Part shown: in pieces, positions 46,193 to 57,284 of the stretch | Layout of the letters: each line of letters starts with the position of its first letter | Numbering within the stretch: the first letter of the stretch is position 1 | Assembly: GCF_009296025.1 (NCBI RefSeq) | Contig: NZ_CP045178.1 | Location: 620,001-684,000, forward strand | Source: Streptomyces tsukubensis | GTDB taxonomy: Bacteria > Actinomycetota > Actinomycetes > Streptomycetales > Streptomycetaceae | Reading direction: 5' to 3' | Length of the DNA: 64,000 nucleotides | Translations under genes and position numbers: made by a program | The notes under the pieces: generated by a model | The model's input: only the letters and a program-made list of their open reading frames with translations | The model's database searches: none | What the model was told of the DNA's origin: nothing

Positions 46193-47134
46193 TCAGACCG
46201 GTTGGTCCATGCGCCGACGCTGGTCCTCCGTGAGCCGCAGCTCCATCGCCTCGAATGCCTCGTCGAGCTGGTCCTCGCGGCTCACTCCCACGATCGGAAC
46301 GATGCCGGGCGTGCCACCGGTCAGCCAGGCGAGCACCACCTGATGGGGCGTCGCCCCGGTCTCCGCCGACACCTCCGCGAGCACCGCGAGGCGCCGCGTG
46401 GTGCCCGGGTGGTCGTAGATCTCGTGCATGGGCCGGTCGGCGCGGGTGTAGGCGCCGCTCAGCAGCGAGCTGTACACCCACAGGTCCACGTCGTCCTCGC
46501 TCGCCGCGTAGTCGAGCGTCTCCGCTGTGGCGAGTCGGTGGCCGCCTTCCGGGACCACCGCCCACGGCCTGGGGTGTACGTAGGAGTGGCGCAGCTGGAG
46601 GGCGGTCCAGCCGGTGACCCCCTGCTCCCGTGCGAGGGCACGGGCCCGCTCCACGCGCCACGCCGTGTGGTTGGATGCACCGAGCCTGCGGACGAGTCCG
46701 TCCCTCACCGTCGCGCCGAAGGCCGCCACCGTCTCGGCCAACGGGTCGTCGCGCTTCTCCGCGTGTGCCCAGTAGAGGTCGATCCGGTCCGTACGAAGCC
46801 GCCGCAGGCTGTCCCGTACGGCCGCGTGGATGACGGCCGGGGAGAGGCCCTCGGCGGACTCGGGCCATTTCCCCGCCGCGGTCGGCTGCTGGCCCACCTT
46901 CGTACTGATGAGTATCCGGTCCCTGACGCCGTCGCGGGCGGTGAGCCACTCCCCGATGAGTGTCTCGCTCTGACCGCCCACACCGGAGGGGTCGGCCCAG
47001 AAGCTGTAGCAGTTGGCGGTATCGATCCAGCGCCCGCCCCGGGCGGCGAACCGGTCGAGGAGCGCCATCGAGGTGTCCCTGTCCACCGTCGTACCGAAGC
47101 TCATCGCGCCCAGGGCGAATTGGGGTGTGGTCAT
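46193..47134 (-). CDS. Aldo/keto reductase
   Basis: 313-aa NADPH-dependent reductase with TIM-barrel fold. Seen: FALGAMSFGTTVDRDTSMAL, the catalytic Asp/Tyr region WIDTANCYSFWADPSGVGGQ, Lys in ILISTKVGQ, LRRLRTDRIDLYWAH with the active His, RRLGASNHTAWRVERA, and a co-factor end GIVPIVGVSREDQLDEAFEA. Physiological substrate unknown. Divergent from the LLM oxidoreductase, with 244 bp between. Confidence 0.9.
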   Translation of the reverse strand: MTTPQFALGAMSFGTTVDRDTSMALLDRFAARGGRWIDTANCYSFWADPSGVGGQSETLIGEWLTARDGVRDRILISTKVGQQPTAAGKWPESAEGLSPAVIHAAVRDSLRRLRTDRIDLYWAHAEKRDDPLAETVAAFGATVRDGLVRRLGASNHTAWRVERARALAREQGVTGWTALQLRHSYVHPRPWAVVPEGGHRLATAETLDYAASEDDVDLWVYSSLLSGAYTRADRPMHEIYDHPGTTRRLAVLAEVSAETGATPHQVVLAWLTGGTPGIVPIVGVSREDQLDEAFEAMELRLTEDQRRRMDQPV

Positions 47135-49464: not shown

Positions 49465-50256
49465 TCACCTCGGGAGCTCGGGCGGTTCCGCGCCGGTTTC
49501 CGCGGGATGGTCCAGTGCCCGCAGGAAGGCGCCGAACCCGTGGGGCGCCCTGGGGGTGCTGCGGCCCGCGGTGCGTACGGGGCAGCGGTCGGTGCGCAGG
49601 ATGCGCCGCCCCTCGCGTTCCAGGGCCGCGACCAGGGCCCGGTCCTCCCCGTGGGTGAGCGGCGGGAACCCGCCCGCCGAGCGGTACGCCTCCGCGGTGA
49701 CACCCAGGTTGGCGCCGTGCACGTGCGGGTGGTCCCAGGGCAGGCGGCGGACGGGCGGGCGCCCGGCGAAGTAGAGGGCGTCGTGCCGGTGCAGCACCGC
49801 CTTGTCGACCGGCGGATGGGACGCGACCCGTACCGTCCCCACCACGCACTCCCAGCCCCGGCCCGCGTGGAACAGTTGGTGGGAGAGCCATCGGGCGGGC
49901 ACGACGGTGTCGGCGTCGGTGACGGCGATCCACGTCCGCCACGCGTCCTCGCCCAGCAGGCCGAGCGCGGCCGTGACGGCCGCGGCCCTGGCGGCGCCCA
50001 CATTGCGGCGGGACACCTCCACGACGTGTGCTCCGTGGCGACGGGCGACGGCCGCCGTGCCGTCCGTACAGGCGTCGGCCGCGACCACGGTGACGACGCG
50101 CGGGCCGTCGGGTCCGAGCCTGCGCGCGGCGGCGCGGGTGGACCGGAGGGTCGCGCCGAGCAGCGCGCTCTCGTTGTGGGCGGGGACGACGACGGCGATC
50201 GCCGGTGGCGGCCGACGCTCCGCGCGTTCGTCGGACGCCGAACGTGCCTCCCTCAC
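49465..50256 (-). CDS. Family-2 glycosyltransferase
   Basis: 263-aa GT-A-fold glycosyltransferase with no membrane spans. Seen: AIAVVVPAHNESALLGATLR, VTVVAADACTDGTAAVARRH, NVGAARAAAV, the nucleotide-sugar metal site WIAVTDADTVVPARWL, VHGANLGVTAEAYRSAGGFP, PLTHGEDRALVAAL. Start GTG 50256 overlaps the methyltransferase stop. Last gene of the operon with acyl-CoA dehydrogenase, PIG-L deacetylase and methyltransferase, suggesting transfer of a sugar to an acylated or amino acceptor. Confidence 0.88.
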   Translation of the reverse strand: MREARSASDERAERRPPPAIAVVVPAHNESALLGATLRSTRAAARRLGPDGPRVVTVVAADACTDGTAAVARRHGAHVVEVSRRNVGAARAAAVTAALGLLGEDAWRTWIAVTDADTVVPARWLSHQLFHAGRGWECVVGTVRVASHPPVDKAVLHRHDALYFAGRPPVRRLPWDHPHVHGANLGVTAEAYRSAGGFPPLTHGEDRALVAALEREGRRILRTDRCPVRTAGRSTPRAPHGFGAFLRALDHPAETGAEPPELPR

Positions 50257-50960
50257 ACAAGGCCCTCCGCCTCGGCGACGGACGGCGGAGCACTCCCGTC
50301 GGGAGCCCCTCGGGTGAAGGTCTGGAGGACGAAGTCCGGGTCGCGGTACTCCGAGAGTTCCACGAGGCCCGGTGTGGCCCGCAGCACGGGGGCGAGCTGT
50401 GATCCGGTCCTGAGGTGGTCGCGTACGGGATGGTCCCAGTGCGCGGTCACCAGGGTGCCACCGGGTTCGAGGCTGTGCACCGCCCGCCCCAGGAGACAGC
50501 TCAGCTCGAAGTCGTCGAAGTAGTAGAGCATTTCGGAGAGGACGATGAGGTCGAAGGTGCCCTCGGGCCACTCCTCGGGCAGCGTCATCCCGCGGACCTC
50601 GGTCCCCGGCAGGTCACGGGTGCGTTCCCTGGCGGATGCGACGGCGGACGGCACGCGGTCCGCGGCGAGAAGGCGGTCGCAGCGGGGTGCGAGCAGGGCG
50701 GTGAGGACCCCGACGGAGCAGCCGGGTTCGAAGGCGGAGCGGTAGCGGCGGCGCGGCAGGGCAGCGACGGTCAGCGCGTACTTGCGCTCCTCGTACCAGC
50801 GTCCGGCGAGGTCCCAGGGGTCGCCCGTGTCGGCGTACATGGCGTCGAAGTAGCCGGGCGGGGTGCTCCCGGTCCGCGCGGGGGCCCGATGCGCGGCCGA
50901 TGCGGGGGTGGGCCGGGTGTCAGGTGCCCGGCGCGCGTTCATGTCCGGTGTCGTACTCAT
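50253..50960 (-). CDS. SAM-dependent methyltransferase (NodS-like)
   Basis: 235-aa class-I methyltransferase. Seen: YFDAMYADTGDPWDLAGRWY, EERKYALTVAALPRRRYRSA, motif I FEPGCSVGVLTALLAPRC, RLLAADRVPSAVASARER, and FDLIVLSEMLYYFDDFELSC. The DPWDLAGRWYEERKY opening is the signature of NodS-type proteins, which N-methylate the amino sugar of rhizobial Nod factors. First 35 residues are disordered. Overlaps PIG-L and glycosyltransferase genes by 4 nt each. Confidence 0.87.
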   Translation of the reverse strand: MSTTPDMNARRAPDTRPTPASAAHRAPARTGSTPPGYFDAMYADTGDPWDLAGRWYEERKYALTVAALPRRRYRSAFEPGCSVGVLTALLAPRCDRLLAADRVPSAVASARERTRDLPGTEVRGMTLPEEWPEGTFDLIVLSEMLYYFDDFELSCLLGRAVHSLEPGGTLVTAHWDHPVRDHLRTGSQLAPVLRATPGLVELSEYRDPDFVLQTFTRGAPDGSAPPSVAEAEGLV

Positions 50961-51925
50961 CGGAAGACCACCTCGAAGTTCCTTGTGTGGTGCGCGAGTT
51001 CCTCCGGAGGCAGGATCACGGTCGGTTCCGCGCCCGCCTCGTTCTTCGCGTTCTCCCCGCTCGCCGCGGTTCTTCCCGTGGCCTCCCCGTTGCCGACGAG
51101 GGGGGCCGTCTGGGTGGCGAACCTCCGCACGGCGCGGTCCTTGGCGGCCTGCGCCCGAGCGGGCAGAGGGAGGCGGTGGGCGGTGTGCCAGGGCACCCGC
51201 CAGTCGTCAGGCACGGCCCAGTGCCACATCCAGACCGGGTACTCCCACAGTGGTGTCCCCGTGGTGCGAGACGCCGCCGCGGCGGCCCGGCCCACTGCCT
51301 CGTGATCGCTGTGCAGGTCTCCCGCCCAGGGTGCTACGCAGACGGCGGCGCCCACTTCCGCGGCCACCGCGGCGATGGTGTCCCTGACCCGCTCCTCGTG
51401 GCGGTGCACCTGGGTGTCGGGGACCCTGAGCCGTCGTTGGCGCAGGCCGGGCAGGCCCAGTTCCTTCATCGCCTCGCCCAGTTCGGCCACGCGCATCCGG
51501 GCGAGCCGTTCGGGGGTGACGTGCGTGTGGTGCGGGTGGGAGGCCTCGCCGTCCGTGACCGAGACGAGGTGTACGTCCGTACCGAGCGCCGCGAGGGCCG
51601 CCATGGTCCCGCCGAAGCCGAGCACTTCGTCGTCTGGGTGGGCGGCGACGACCAGTACGGGGCCGGCCGGCGGCTCGGCGACCGGCAGCCGGGCGAGTCC
51701 CCGCCAGGACGCCCAGGTCTTCTCCGGGGTGCCCGGGGCGTCGATGGCCTCGGCAGCCGACCGATCGGGGACGTCGATGGCGTCGGCAGCCGACCGGCCG
51801 GGGATGTCGATGGCATCCGCCGTCGCCCGGCCTGGAGCAGGGTCGGTGTCGGCCGTCGCCCGGCCTGGAACATCGATGGTGTCGGCCGTCGCCCGGTCGG
51901 CGGCGGGGTGTTCCGTGCCGCTCAC
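50957..51925 (-). CDS. PIG-L/LmbE-family deacetylase with N-terminal repeats
   Basis: 322-aa predicted zinc-dependent N-deacetylase of the LmbE/MshB/PIG-L type, removing acetyl from an amino sugar. The metal motif AHPDDEVLGFGGTMAALAAL is near residue 94 and the second His site is DLHSDHEAVGRAAAAA. The first 60 residues are five 11-residue units (RATADTIDVPG type: RATADTDPAPG, RATADAIDIPG, RSAADAIDVPD, RSAAEAIDAPG) that are not part of the enzyme fold. Overlaps both neighbours by 4 nt. Confidence 0.9.
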   Translation of the reverse strand: MSGTEHPAADRATADTIDVPGRATADTDPAPGRATADAIDIPGRSAADAIDVPDRSAAEAIDAPGTPEKTWASWRGLARLPVAEPPAGPVLVVAAHPDDEVLGFGGTMAALAALGTDVHLVSVTDGEASHPHHTHVTPERLARMRVAELGEAMKELGLPGLRQRRLRVPDTQVHRHEERVRDTIAAVAAEVGAAVCVAPWAGDLHSDHEAVGRAAAAASRTTGTPLWEYPVWMWHWAVPDDWRVPWHTAHRLPLPARAQAAKDRAVRRFATQTAPLVGNGEATGRTAASGENAKNEAGAEPTVILPPEELAHHTRNFEVVFR

Positions 51926-53070
51926 TGGGGCCTCCTCGCGCCGGGGTCGGCGGGGACCGGACCGGCCCCGCCCGCCTTCTCGCCCGAGCCCTGACCCTCA
52001 CCCACGTCCTCGGCTTCGGCTTCGGCTTCGGCTTCGGCTTCGGCTTCGGCTTCGGCGATCAGATGGCCGAGGGTGGCGAGGTCGCGTTCCGCGTGGTGCT
52101 GGCGGATGTAGACGGTCAGGTCGGCGACGGTCCGGGCGTGGCGCTCGTCGTGGCAGAGCGGCCCGGCCCCTGTCGCCCTGCCCACGTGGTCCATGACGTC
52201 GGCGCAGACACGTTCCACCAGGGCGCGCACCCGCAGGGCGCGCGGGGTGCCGCCGTCGAGCAGGTCGAGCGGGTCGGCGTCGATCTCGTCCGCGGCCTGC
52301 CACAGCACGGTCTCGGCGGCGTTGAGCAGGACGTCGACGGCGCCGAGGTGAGCCGCGGTGTGCGCGTCGGGGGTCCTCCTGCGGGCCCCGGCGAGCAGGG
52401 TGTCGGCGACGGAGCGGGCCCCGCCGAGCCAGCAGGCCGCCACACCGATGCCGCCGTGGGTGAATCCGGGCCGCTCGACGTAGTCACCGTTCTCTCCGAC
52501 GGGTGCGGCGGGTACCGCGGTGAAGGTGACGTCGGGGGTGTCGCTGCCCGCCATGCCGATGGCGGGCCAGGTGCCGGGCACGGTGGCGGTGCCCGGTCCG
52601 TCGACGCGGGCGGCGAAGAGTCGCCATCCGTCGCCGGTGGCCGCGGTGACGAGGGCGTCGGTGCAGGAGTGCGCGCCCGAGCAGTACTGCTTCAGACCGT
52701 CGAGGCGCCACCGGCCCTCGTCGTCGAGCGTGGCGGTCAGGCCGGGTCCCGGCGGTTGCGCGGCCCAGACACCCCAGCGCCGGCCGGCCTCCGGCGCGGG
52801 CCCGCCCAGTTCGTCGAGGATGGCGACGGCGTCGAGGTGCCCTTCGGCCAGTCGGGCGAGGGCCAGGTCCGATCTGCCGAGGCGGTAGAGGGCGCGGAAC
52901 CGCGCGCGGGTCATGCCCTCGGCCGGGAGCGGCACGTGGGCGGCCTCGTCCCTCGCCCACGCGGCGAAACGCCTGGCCACGCCATGTCGTACCTGGTCAG
53001 AACCGTTCTCTTCGCCGCGCGGCGGGGAGTCCGTGGGGCGGACCGGGGAGTCCTCGACGTCAGCGGTCAC
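51922..53070 (-). CDS. Acyl-CoA dehydrogenase family protein
   Basis: 382-aa flavoprotein-like protein, first gene of the operon. Recognisable parts: LALARLAEGHLDAVAILDEL, WGVWAAQPPGPGLTATLDDE, GRWRLDGLKQYCSGAHSCTD, GWRLFAARVDGP, and helical C-terminal AAHLGAVDVLLNAAETVLWQ. It is divergent from standard acyl-CoA dehydrogenases and I cannot place the catalytic base. The C-terminus carries an (Glu-Ala)8 run from a hexanucleotide repeat. GTG at 53070 has AAGG upstream. Ends 4 nt inside the PIG-L gene. Confidence 0.82.
   Translation of the reverse strand: MTADVEDSPVRPTDSPPRGEENGSDQVRHGVARRFAAWARDEAAHVPLPAEGMTRARFRALYRLGRSDLALARLAEGHLDAVAILDELGGPAPEAGRRWGVWAAQPPGPGLTATLDDEGRWRLDGLKQYCSGAHSCTDALVTAATGDGWRLFAARVDGPGTATVPGTWPAIGMAGSDTPDVTFTAVPAAPVGENGDYVERPGFTHGGIGVAACWLGGARSVADTLLAGARRRTPDAHTAAHLGAVDVLLNAAETVLWQAADEIDADPLDLLDGGTPRALRVRALVERVCADVMDHVGRATGAGPLCHDERHARTVADLTVYIRQHHAERDLATLGHLIAEAEAEAEAEAEAEAEDVGEGQGSGEKAGGAGPVPADPGARRPQ
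52010..52055. repeat. Hexanucleotide microsatellite (CGGCTT)
   Basis: About 7.5 uninterrupted copies of CGGCTT within the acyl-CoA dehydrogenase gene, read on the minus strand as alternating Ala-Glu. Six-base steps keep the frame, so length can vary without inactivating the gene. Confidence 0.95.
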
Positions 53071-53319
53071 CTTGCACCATCTGCCTTTCGGACTGCGGTC
53101 GGGACGTGGAGCCGGTCTCCCGCCCCCGCCCCTCGGCAGAACGGCTCCCACCTCGCATCATCGGAGTAGTGAAGGAGGCGCGCACCTCATGGCGCGACGC
53201 TCCGCCGAGTGCCCGGTGGGGTGCGGCGCAAACCGCGCACCACCCCCGGTGGCCCTCGGCACACCACCCCCGGAGGCCTTCGACACTCCCCACCGGTCAC
53301 CGAGCGCGGTCCCTACGGC

Positions 53320-54388: not shown

Positions 54389-55435
54389 TCAGGCGACCGG
54401 AACGGTGAGCGGTTCGAGGAGTGTGCGGTCGCCGTCGAAGCCGTGGGCCAGCGCGGCCGCGACGTCCTCGTGCGGGGTTCCCATACGGACGGCGCTGATC
54501 TCGTCCAGCCGCTGGTAGTGCCCCTCGTCGAGTTCGAGGCGGAGAGAGCTCAGGTATTCCTCCAGGTGCGTCAGGGAGCGGGGGCCGACTATCGGGACGA
54601 GGGCGGTGTGGGCTCGTGCGGCCCGGCCACGCAGCCAGGCCAGGGCGACCTGGATCGCGCTCACGCCGACCTCGTGGGCGATCGTCAGTACGGCGTCAAC
54701 GACGGCGGTGCGCTGGGTGGTGTCCTCGATGGCGCCGCCTCGGGCGGTCAGCCTGCCCTGTCCGCCCTGTCGGTACTTTCCGGTGAGCAGTCCTCCGGCC
54801 AGCGGGGAGTACAGGAGGGCGCCCAGGCCGTGGGCCTCTGCCATCGGCAGTAGTTCCCGCTCGGCTGACCGTTCGGCCAGGCTGTACTCGGTCTGGATGC
54901 CGACCAGCGGGGCCAGGCCCCGCAGGTCGGCCCGGACCGCGGCCCCGGCGACCCGCCAGGCCGGGAAGTTGGAGAGTGCGCCGTGCAGGATCTTGCCGGA
55001 GCGGATCAGATCGTCGAAACCGGCCAGGATCTCCTCAATGGGGGTGGTCCCGTCGGGGAAGTGCGGCATGAAGACGTCCACGTACTCGGTGTCGAGCCGG
55101 CGCAGGCTCGCCTCCAGGGAGCGGACCATGGTCTTGCGGCTGTTGCCCGTGGTGCCGGGGCGGGGGTGTCGCTGCCGCGTTCCGCTGTACTTGCTGATGA
55201 CGACATAGTCGTCCCGTTGGCCACCGAGCAGCCCGCCGAGCACGGTTTCCGCCTGTCCGTCCTGGTAGAGGTTGGAGGTGTCGAACGTGGTGCCTCCGGC
55301 GGCGACGAAGGCCTCGAAGATCTGCCGCGACCCCTCAGGACCGGCGCCGGTGTCCGAGGTACTGAAGTTCGCCGTCCCGAGCGCGTACTCCGACACGCGC
55401 AGTCCGGTCAGTCGGCCGAAGGTCCTGTAGCGCAT
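54389..55435 (-). CDS. Aldo/keto reductase
   Basis: 348-aa NADPH-dependent reductase. Seen: YRTFGRLTGLRVSEYALGTA, TTFDTSNLYQDGQAETVLGG (catalytic Asp and Tyr), DYVVISKYSGTRQ (Lys), LRRLDTEYVDVFMPHFPDGT (His), HGALSNFPAWRVAGAAVRAD, GLGALLYSPLAGGLLTGKYR, and VPIVGPRSLTHLEEYLSSL. Divergent from a TetR regulator with only 72 bp between starts; the shared region holds an imperfect inverted repeat (GGTAGG...CGTACC, 55462-55482). Probably the target of that regulator. Confidence 0.9.
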   Translation of the reverse strand: MRYRTFGRLTGLRVSEYALGTANFSTSDTGAGPEGSRQIFEAFVAAGGTTFDTSNLYQDGQAETVLGGLLGGQRDDYVVISKYSGTRQRHPRPGTTGNSRKTMVRSLEASLRRLDTEYVDVFMPHFPDGTTPIEEILAGFDDLIRSGKILHGALSNFPAWRVAGAAVRADLRGLAPLVGIQTEYSLAERSAERELLPMAEAHGLGALLYSPLAGGLLTGKYRQGGQGRLTARGGAIEDTTQRTAVVDAVLTIAHEVGVSAIQVALAWLRGRAARAHTALVPIVGPRSLTHLEEYLSSLRLELDEGHYQRLDEISAVRMGTPHEDVAAALAHGFDGDRTLLEPLTVPVA

Positions 55436-56273: not shown

Positions 56274-57101
56274 TCAAGCTCCGAACCGGTCGGGGTCGAA
56301 ACCGGTGCGCTCGTCGCGGTTGAGGGCCGCGATCTCGGCGAGGTCACCCTCGGTCAGTTCGAAGTCGAACAGATCGAAGTTCTCCTCCACCCGCTTCCGC
56401 GTGACCGACTTCGGGAAGACGATGTCGCCGCGCTGGAGGTGCCATCGGAGGGTGACCTGGGCCGGGGACTTGCCGACACGCTCGGCGATGGCCACGATCA
56501 CCGGATCGTCGAGCACCTTGCCCTGCGCGATGGGCGACCAGGCCTCGGTGGCGATACCGTGCTCGGCGTCGAACGCCCGCAGTTCCTCCTGGGTGAGGTA
56601 CGGATGCACCTCGATCTGGTTGACGGCGGGGACCACGACGCTGTTCTGGAAGAGACGGCGCAGGTGGTGCGCCTGGAAGTTGGAGACACCGACGGCCTTG
56701 ACCCGGCCGGACCTGTACATCTCCTCCATGGCCTGCCAGGTCTCCGTGAAGTCACCCACGCCCGGCAGCGGCCAGTGGATGAGGAAGAGATCGAGGTACT
56801 CGATGTCCAGCGTGTCCATCGTCTTGTCGAAGGCTCGCAGCGCGTCGTCATGGGCGTGCGCGTCGTTGTCGAGCTTGCTGGTCACGAAGATCTCGCCCCG
56901 GTCGATGCCGGAGTCACGGACGGCCTGGCCGACCTCTTTCTCGTTGCCGTACATCTGGGCGGTGTCGAGGTGCCGGTAACCGACCTCCAGCGCCGCCAGA
57001 GTCGCGTCCCTGGTCTCCTCGGGGGCGATCTGGAAGGTACCGAAGCCGAGCTGGGGAATCTCGACACCATTGTTCAGGGTGATGCTGGGTACTGCGGACA
57101 C
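56274..57101 (-). CDS. Aldo/keto reductase (2,5-diketo-gluconate reductase-like)
   Basis: 275-aa AKR5-like reductase. Seen: ITLNNGVEIPQLGFGTFQIA, GYRHLDTAQMYGNEKEVGQA (Asp, Tyr), EIFVTSKLDND (Lys), LDIEYLDLFLIHWPLPG (His), VKAVGVSNFQAHHLRRL, VNQIEVHPYLTQEELRAF, and GDIVFPKSVTRKRVEENFDL at the cofactor end. Start GTG 57101 has GGGAG six nt upstream. Monocistronic; the right neighbour photolyase gene reads in the same direction, 200 bp upstream. Confidence 0.92.
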   Translation of the reverse strand: MSAVPSITLNNGVEIPQLGFGTFQIAPEETRDATLAALEVGYRHLDTAQMYGNEKEVGQAVRDSGIDRGEIFVTSKLDNDAHAHDDALRAFDKTMDTLDIEYLDLFLIHWPLPGVGDFTETWQAMEEMYRSGRVKAVGVSNFQAHHLRRLFQNSVVVPAVNQIEVHPYLTQEELRAFDAEHGIATEAWSPIAQGKVLDDPVIVAIAERVGKSPAQVTLRWHLQRGDIVFPKSVTRKRVEENFDLFDFELTEGDLAEIAALNRDERTGFDPDRFGA

Positions 57102-57284
57102 GTGTGACTCCCTGCTCTCGACATTGGATCGGGGCGGGGCCGACCGGGCCGCTCCTCGCGGGGCGATCGTCCGGCGTACGCCTCCGGATCCCGTCCACGA
57201 GTTCGTGTCCCCGGTTTGGGCAGGCGAAAAACATACGAATGGCACGAAAGAGCTGTTTTTAGGCCCTTATCCACCACTTACCGT

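Follow-up and report, generated by a model that had tools for sequence, protein, structure and literature searches.

What does a compact operon make when its four genes pair an amino-sugar deacetylase and a NodS-like methyltransferase with a glycosyltransferase and a flavoenzyme fold? The question is raised by a locus of Streptomyces tsukubensis (contig NZ_CP045178.1), which lies in the 64,000-nt stretch of DNA analyzed here (positions 620,001 to 684,000, referred to as the window). The operon encodes an acyl-CoA dehydrogenase (ACAD)-fold flavoenzyme, a PIG-L/LmbE-type de-N-acetylase, a NodS-like S-adenosylmethionine (SAM)-dependent methyltransferase (MT), and a GT2-family glycosyltransferase (GT). 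A first-pass annotation, made from the window alone, had read it as a tight operon with Nod-factor-like logic. A literature search returned no paper characterizing this gene set. The explanation favored here, with a confidence slightly above even, is that the genes form a mobile, stress-induced cassette making a small N-methylated amino-sugar glycoside, and this product is probably oxidized as well. The link to stress, which is new here, and the wide taxonomic spread of the cassette were absent from the first-pass annotation.

The operon is real and more than a chance arrangement. Its coordinates were confirmed exactly: all four frames are open, they follow one another in the order ACAD, PIG-L, MT, and GT2 on the minus strand (53070–49465), and each of the three junctions is a 4-nt overlap. 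The same overlaps recur at other loci (Table 1; starts were chosen by script, and the loci are counted without denominators), and a further 18 ACAD/PIG-L junctions overlap by 7 nt. The start of the ACAD is uncertain: its frame opens at 53151, and BLAST homology mostly begins at about residue 46. According to Pfam, PIG-L and the MT belong to their superfamilies (PF02585, 98.9 bits against a cut-off of 28.2; PF05401, the NodS family, 51.5 bits against 24), and the GT exceeds the threshold of PF00535 (55.0 bits against 23.3). The metal motifs HPDDE and HxDH of PIG-L are conserved and the TDAD and ED motifs of the GT are invariant; the window copies of both are intact, as is EPGCSVG in the MT. These motifs, whose catalytic meaning is assumed here, suggest that the three proteins are live enzymes. 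The ACAD remains below both relevant Pfam cut-offs (PF00441, 21.0 against 22.4; PF02770, 20.0 against 33.3). The earlier name “acyl-CoA dehydrogenase” is therefore a label at the level of the fold only.

The four genes constitute a conserved cassette. A scan of named genomes with the ACAD yielded at least 543 confirmed relatives, and the 80 loci kept from it were picked by their ACAD and are all actinobacterial by title. All four genes lie within 6 kb in 60 of these 80 loci; PIG-L is present in 71, the MT in 66, the GT in 62, and ACAD, PIG-L, and MT together in 65. The gene order is ACAD-PIGL-MT-GT in Streptomyces and GT-ACAD-PIGL-MT in Rhodococcus, Nocardia, and those Mycobacterium loci that have the full set. 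Within the genus, 199 genomes were searched at E 1e-20. The ACAD was detected in 25 and the MT in 26, with both in 23, the ACAD only in 2, the MT only in 3, and neither in 171 (Fisher 1e-24), and the distribution is patchy. The first-pass annotation had named conserved co-occurrence beforehand as a point on which it should be judged, and co-occurrence is what both samples revealed. The phylum sample comprises 396 genomes from 245 genera; 49 of these genomes, belonging to 35 genera, have the ACAD. Over 54 loci, the pairwise distances of the four proteins correlate at 0.82–0.85.

The cassette is also found outside actinobacterial chromosomes. Plasmid records carrying it come from Pandoraea, Kitasatospora, Acinetobacter, Bradyrhizobium, Legionella, Cupriavidus, Comamonas, Sphingobium, Sphingomonas, Komagataeibacter, Roseomonas, Paracoccus, Sulfitobacter, Deinococcus, and Nostoc. 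Among the 23 plasmid-collection loci examined, which were chosen by PIG-L or MT, 19 have all four genes, two lack the GT, one lacks PIG-L, and one lacks the ACAD. When the MTs are placed in an unrooted tree, a branch with support values of 99/97 leaves the Burkholderiales and Acinetobacter sequences on the same side as the actinobacterial ones, which fits exchange between phyla. That so small a pathway stays intact across actinobacteria, proteobacteria, Deinococcus, and a cyanobacterium, and is at times plasmid-borne, makes it very probable that its product is useful. This spread bears on the idea that the operon belongs to accessory specialized metabolism, such as antibiotic tailoring, on a chromosome arm of the genus. 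Patchy occurrence (25 of 199 genomes), often toward the ends of near-complete chromosomes, would suit that idea, but it is very improbable given the same genes in Deinococcus, a cyanobacterium, and proteobacteria, and none of the 19 annotated plasmid loci lists a polyketide or peptide synthase.

Two deviations from the complete set were also observed. Three genus genomes (G036, G042, and G069) have MT relatives but no cassette ACAD at E 1e-20. Seven loci, mostly of Mycobacterium (L068, L071, L073, L082, L093, L095, and L099), have the ACAD without PIG-L and MT in the surrounding stretch, L068 keeping the GT, and some other ACAD matches in the phylum sample carry in-frame stops; these look like decay or rearrangement of the cassette.

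The best clue to function is that one class of deacetylase can take the place of another. The 40 phylum-sample loci considered are those fetched of the 48 genomes, other than that of the window, with an ACAD match. PIG-L is present in 23 of them, a NodB-family deacetylase in 15, and neither in two (L173 and L187). None has both, against 8.6 expected if the two were independent, although this exchange is confounded by shared ancestry; the 15 NodB-type loci span four families (f20, f11, f36, and f44), so that ancestry explains part of the pattern. At these 15 loci and in Rubrobacter indicoceani (L140), PIG-L is missing, and the gene directly upstream of the ACAD, on its strand, encodes the NodB-family enzyme. 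The 15 were found as homologues of the L140 polysaccharide deacetylase at E 1e-48 or better, and the two proteins scanned, from L140 and L184, have TIGR04243 NodB as their best model with 113.4 and 107.1 bits, below its cut-off of 240. The PIG-L profile itself is nearest to diacetylchitobiose deacetylase (1.4e-20). The proposal that LmbE/PIG-L stands in for NodB is strongly supported by the loci in which the NodB-family enzyme takes its place.

For the MT, the best profile match is 4isc, a solved but unnamed methyltransferase (2.6e-60), followed by NodS (1.4e-25) and then by the next protein at 3.5e-10. These values support NodS as its nearest characterized relative and agree with the NodS-type methylation proposed at first pass. 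Nevertheless, the cassette MT is not NodS itself: it scores 68.4 bits against the 300 of the NodS equivalog model NF041650, and a branch of the unrooted tree (98/82) parts all 41 cassette MTs from four NodS and two fusion proteins. Two rhizobial single-chain proteins (L193:2378-5380 and L194:2504-5416) combine GT2, NodS, and polysaccharide-deacetylase domains. They bring the three activities together in one chain, but they differ from the cassette in being fused, in having a deacetylase of the polysaccharide-deacetylase type, and in having no ACAD annotated within their 4-kb flanks. The PIG-L/NodB exchange and these fusions together indicate that this kind of MT has been paired with either class of amino-sugar deacetylase, and there is good support for a logic in which deacetylation precedes NodS-type methylation. 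“Trifunctional” names in other records suggest that rhizobial GT2-NodS-deacetylase proteins form a wider family. In the accessible parts of two further papers (PMC3420878 and PMC8092242), NodS occurs only in a reference.

The ACAD is a probable oxygenase acting on an amino sugar. It is unlike a typical beta-oxidation ACAD in two respects: its Pfam domains are below cut-off, and the EG[TS] motif, which we take as the mark of the classical ACAD catalytic base, is absent from the last 90 residues in 51 of 55 family members. A comparison of the ACAD profile with the PDB gave matches to DszC (4.9e-9), MsuC (4.6e-8), KijD3 (3.3e-7), and nitrososynthase (3.5e-7). The 13 matches at 1e-5 or better comprise eight of the DszC-type/MsuC/KijD3/nitrososynthase kind, three CoA-thioester dehydrogenases or reductases, and the top two, 5gj7 and 5z8t. 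In the alignment to DszC, S131 and W168 of the ACAD fall on S163 and W205, two residues that presumably line the flavin site, and CSGA and W..GM motifs are common to both proteins. Rubrobacter-like loci (11 genus labels) have a ferredoxin-NAD reductase-like gene between the MT and the GT; it was seen only in this version, and the one protein scanned is under the equivalog cut-offs. Group D enzymes are ACAD-fold monooxygenases that are fed by a separate reductase and also N-hydroxylate, as stated in the accessible part of the work on XiaF (PMC5481743). The PDB ranking, the residue alignment, the reductase-like gene, and the XiaF work collectively lead to the reading of the ACAD as an oxygenase. 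Group D two-component monooxygenases (DszC, MsuC, KijD3, nitrososynthase, and DnmZ) provide most of its best-scoring solved relatives; however, the cassette ACAD is shorter, and no flavin reductase is present in the window operon. Two Deinococcus ACADs (L139:1172-3511 and L196:1877-4240) are extended at the N-terminus by about 410 residues; this region, which matches nothing in Pfam, reads by eye like a glycosidase, and in one Deinococcus strain a GH1 gene adjoins the extended ACAD.

With the four activities in hand, the cassette can be compared with the NodC-NodB-NodS module of rhizobial Nod factor synthesis. Both contain a GT2-family transferase, an amino-sugar deacetylase, and an MT that matches PF05401, and the NodB-family enzyme takes the place of PIG-L at the loci mentioned above. 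On the other hand, the window operon has PIG-L and no NodB-family deacetylase, the ACAD-fold flavoenzyme and the stress context described below are additional, and the cassette MTs are separate from NodS in the tree. Moreover, neither a NodA-type acyltransferase nor a NodC-type chitin synthase was matched among the four proteins in Pfam and NCBIfam, and lipochitooligosaccharide synthesis was rejected for this reason. A lipochitooligosaccharide-like product or other amino-sugar lipid, whose acyl chain the ACAD would supply or modify, is very improbable. The joint presence of a NodS-like MT, a deacetylase, and a GT2, with a NodB-family deacetylase in the variant without PIG-L, favors such a lipid, but the missing NodA and NodC matches, the Pfam scores of the ACAD, and the lack of an EG[TS] motif in most of the ACAD family do not. 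The Nod-factor analogy of the first-pass annotation therefore holds for deacetylation and methylation and fails for the lipid part: the acyl step has no NodA or NodC match, the MT is far below the NodS equivalog cut-off, and the ACAD is more monooxygenase-like.

Glycosyl transfer followed by PIG-L deacetylation to give a small protective molecule is also the logic of mycothiol and bacillithiol synthesis (MshA-MshB and BshA-BshB). In a redox cofactor of this type, a nucleophile would next be placed on the amine and the product would guard against oxidants. Besides the shared GT and PIG-L logic, the proximity of catalase (see below) and weak matches of the window PIG-L to BshB2, BshB1, and MshB (53.3, 50.6, and 32.6 bits) are in line with this explanation, which is nonetheless improbable. 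These scores are far below the respective cut-offs (195, 182, and 224; TIGR04000, TIGR04001, and TIGR03445), and a mycothiol or bacillithiol paralogue was rejected on that basis. In addition, a NodB-family enzyme can replace PIG-L, no cysteine ligase or acetyltransferase was matched among the four proteins, and methylation of the amine would block ligation there. The cassette further differs in having a GT2 instead of a GT4, and methylation and flavin chemistry instead of cysteine ligation.

The stress context emerges from the surroundings of the cassette. Neighboring genes were clustered over 141 loci under 65 genus labels, which comprise named genera, genus codes, and a few family-level names, with possible double counting. 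The most recurrent neighbor is a long catalase, which we take to be KatE-type, found under 12 of the 65 labels and at 22 of the 141 loci, at a median of 2.7 kb from the ACAD. In the phylum sample, the catalase C-terminal domain was matched in 28 of the 49 cassette genomes; the 17 with a match in a frame of at least 700 residues were kept, and the 11 with short frames were dropped. The catalase lies within about 10 kb of the cassette in 8 of these 17 genomes, which come from four families, against 0.074 expected (P 2.7e-15, assuming uniform placement and independent genomes). Further recurrent neighbors, each under 5 or 6 labels, are topoisomerase IB, a sigma factor (regions 2-3-4), ferritin-like proteins, and GT4, and at least one gene of general-stress type, on the author’s reading, is near 15 of the 19 annotated plasmid loci; both counts are without control.

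These neighbors are of consequence for a further explanation, in which the envelope or an exopolysaccharide is decorated: amino sugars of a surface glycan would be trimmed and methylated by the cassette enzymes, and no free small molecule would be made. It can draw on the rhizobial fusion L193, which lies among glycosyltransferases and an ABC transporter, on the extra glycosyltransferases of the Sphingobium and Sphingomonas versions, and on glf and a GT1 beside the cassette in Deinococcus AJ005. Yet only one of the ten named recurrent neighbor clusters is a transporter, an ABC ATPase that occurs under 8 of 65 genus labels at a median distance of 6.5 kb, and it is catalase that recurs most; decoration of a surface glycan is accordingly considered unlikely.

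For the stress-induced cassette favored here, promoter-like sequences provide a second line of evidence. The pattern GTTT-N14-17-GGGNA, which we take to represent the SigF/SigB consensus, precedes the first cassette gene in 34 of the 81 regions scanned, that of the window included; random windows would give 1.9, shuffled sequences gave a mean of 0.8, and the reverse strand gave 5. This pattern is the best of four that were tried, and the 81 regions are all actinobacterial with related species included. The positive regions are distributed as 17 of 22 in Mycobacterium, 8 of 29 in Streptomyces, 6 of 10 in Rhodococcus, 2 of 2 in Nocardia, 1 of 2 in Nocardiopsis, and 0 of 16 under other labels. 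Four wrong spacings gave only 1 to 3 regions, and three of six scrambled ends gave 0 to 2. An EcfG-type promoter was rejected (0 of 81 regions); since these regions are actinobacterial, this result says nothing on proteobacteria.

Published observations on Acinetobacter bear on the same subject. According to the accessible part of one study, cells are protected during drying by the catalase KatE and a protein transcribed along with it (PMC13232832). On the L008 plasmid, the cassette adjoins genes for a catalase and for an iron-containing redox enzyme. Spread of this redox enzyme was rejected, as it has no match in the other fetched loci. For A. baumannii BlsA, the STRING neighbors given in the accessible part of another paper include LmbE, a glycosyl transferase, and a SAM methyltransferase, with KatE by coexpression and OtsB by co-occurrence (PMC9948694).

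Hints about the acceptor come from the GT. In L180, L185, and L186, the cassette GT is fused to GpgS (glucosyl-3-phosphoglycerate synthase), whose regions score 341.9, 318.9, and 352.7 bits against a cut-off of 262; the GpgS region of a fourth fusion, L176, scores 208.6, so that three of the four tested pass. The passing fusions represent three lineages, all at loci of the NodB-type version, and a stand-alone GpgS is located about 5 kb beyond the GT in L167. In the window genome, GpgS exceeds the cut-off but lies outside the cassette. In favor of such an acceptor, GpgS above cut-off is found in 38 of 49 cassette genomes and 167 of 347 others (205 of the 396 sampled; Fisher 1e-4, assuming that the cassette and GpgS scans drew the same 396 genomes). 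The fusions hint at a glycerate glycoside as the product. Trehalose is a further candidate: the cassette sits between otsA and otsB in Comamonas antarctica, and trehalose genes are near it in Acinetobacter and Legionella.

From these results we infer the following substrates, step order, ACAD chemistry, acceptor, and role for the favored small glycoside. The GT2 would add an N-acetylhexosamine, probably N-acetylglucosamine (GlcNAc) from UDP-GlcNAc, to a small polar acceptor; glucosyl(-phospho)glycerate, trehalose, or another stress solute may play this part. PIG-L would then take off the N-acetyl group, and the NodS-like enzyme would methylate the freed amine with SAM as the donor. Finally, the product would be oxidized by the ACAD-fold flavoenzyme, and the likeliest site, by analogy with sugar N-oxygenases, is the (methyl)amine.

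Several observations weigh against this scheme. The ACAD is alone at 7 of the 80 named loci, one of which (L033) is cut by a contig end. For its top PDB matches, 5gj7 and 5z8t (1.4e-10), the only name given is “acyl-CoA dehydrogenase type 2 domain protein”, true dehydrogenases follow close behind in the profile (7xp7, 6.3e-7; 2dvl, 1.2e-6), and one alphaproteobacterial member best matches glutaryl-CoA dehydrogenase. The other three scrambled ends of the promoter pattern score too (TGTT 14, TTTG 11, and GGGNC 11 of 81), although some may overlap the true motif. The window cassette itself has neither a catalase nor a trehalose gene beside it, and the long catalase of the genome is about 0.2 Mb away. 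The excess of GpgS in cassette genomes is confounded by shared ancestry, and 11 of the 49 have no GpgS over the cut-off; glucosyl-3-phosphoglycerate is therefore not a universal acceptor, and it was rejected as an obligatory one.

A bolder version of the scheme, distinctly unlikely as a whole, would have at least four phyla share a glucosaminyl glycoside that is N-methylated and N-oxidized, to a hydroxylamine or nitrone, and whose core is glycerate or trehalose. This compound would be an oxidant scavenger made as needed under general-stress sigma factors beside catalase, and the deacetylation and methylation of Nod factors would be a symbiotic offshoot of the same toolkit, which would have pre-existed with a PIG-L or NodB-type deacetylase. 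If the product is a stress protectant, it would join trehalose and catalase as a tool against drying and oxidants, and it would show how Nod-factor chemistry could arise from non-symbiotic parts.

Table 1. Positions of the cassette genes, their junctions, and associated features; coordinates refer to the window, except for the last line, which gives locus handles.
Feature	Position	Strand	Remarks
ACAD-fold flavoenzyme gene	51922..53070	-	382 residues from GTG at 53070; K..CSGA motif; (EA)n tail
PIG-L/LmbE-type de-N-acetylase gene	50957..51925	-	322 residues; zinc motifs AHPDDE and HSDH
NodS-like SAM methyltransferase (MT) gene	50253..50960	-	235 residues
GT2 glycosyltransferase gene	49465..50256	-	263 residues; TDAD and ED motifs
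ACAD/PIG-L overlap, 4 nt	51922..51925	-	same overlap in 31 measured loci
PIG-L/MT overlap, 4 nt	50957..50960	-	same overlap in 53 measured loci
MT/GT overlap, 4 nt	50253..50256	-	same overlap in 22 measured loci
SigF/SigB-type promoter-like GTTT-N15-GGGCA	53210..53233	-	163 nt before the chosen ACAD start
33-bp tandem repeat, 5.1 copies	51733..51900	-	in the PIG-L N-terminal extension
Perfect 6-bp tandem repeat, 7.8 copies	52010..52056	-	codes (EA)n near the ACAD C-terminus
NodB-family deacetylase in place of PIG-L	L174-L186, L188, L189, L140		directly upstream of the ACAD

Two of the window genes contain tandem repeats (Table 1). The 33-bp repeat in PIG-L multiplies a short peptide directly before the start of the homologous part, and the 6-bp repeat of the ACAD is a likely hot spot for length change. 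The window genome has a size of 8.63 Mb, and the nearest named ACADs are from Streptomyces. The genes around the operon encode three aldo/keto reductases, a short-chain dehydrogenase/reductase, a luciferase-like oxidoreductase, a SnoaL-like protein, and a MarR regulator, with no obvious partner among them. The three aldo/keto reductase genes (46193-47134, 54389-55414, and 56274-57245) are all on the minus strand; they span about 11 kb and flank the operon on either side.

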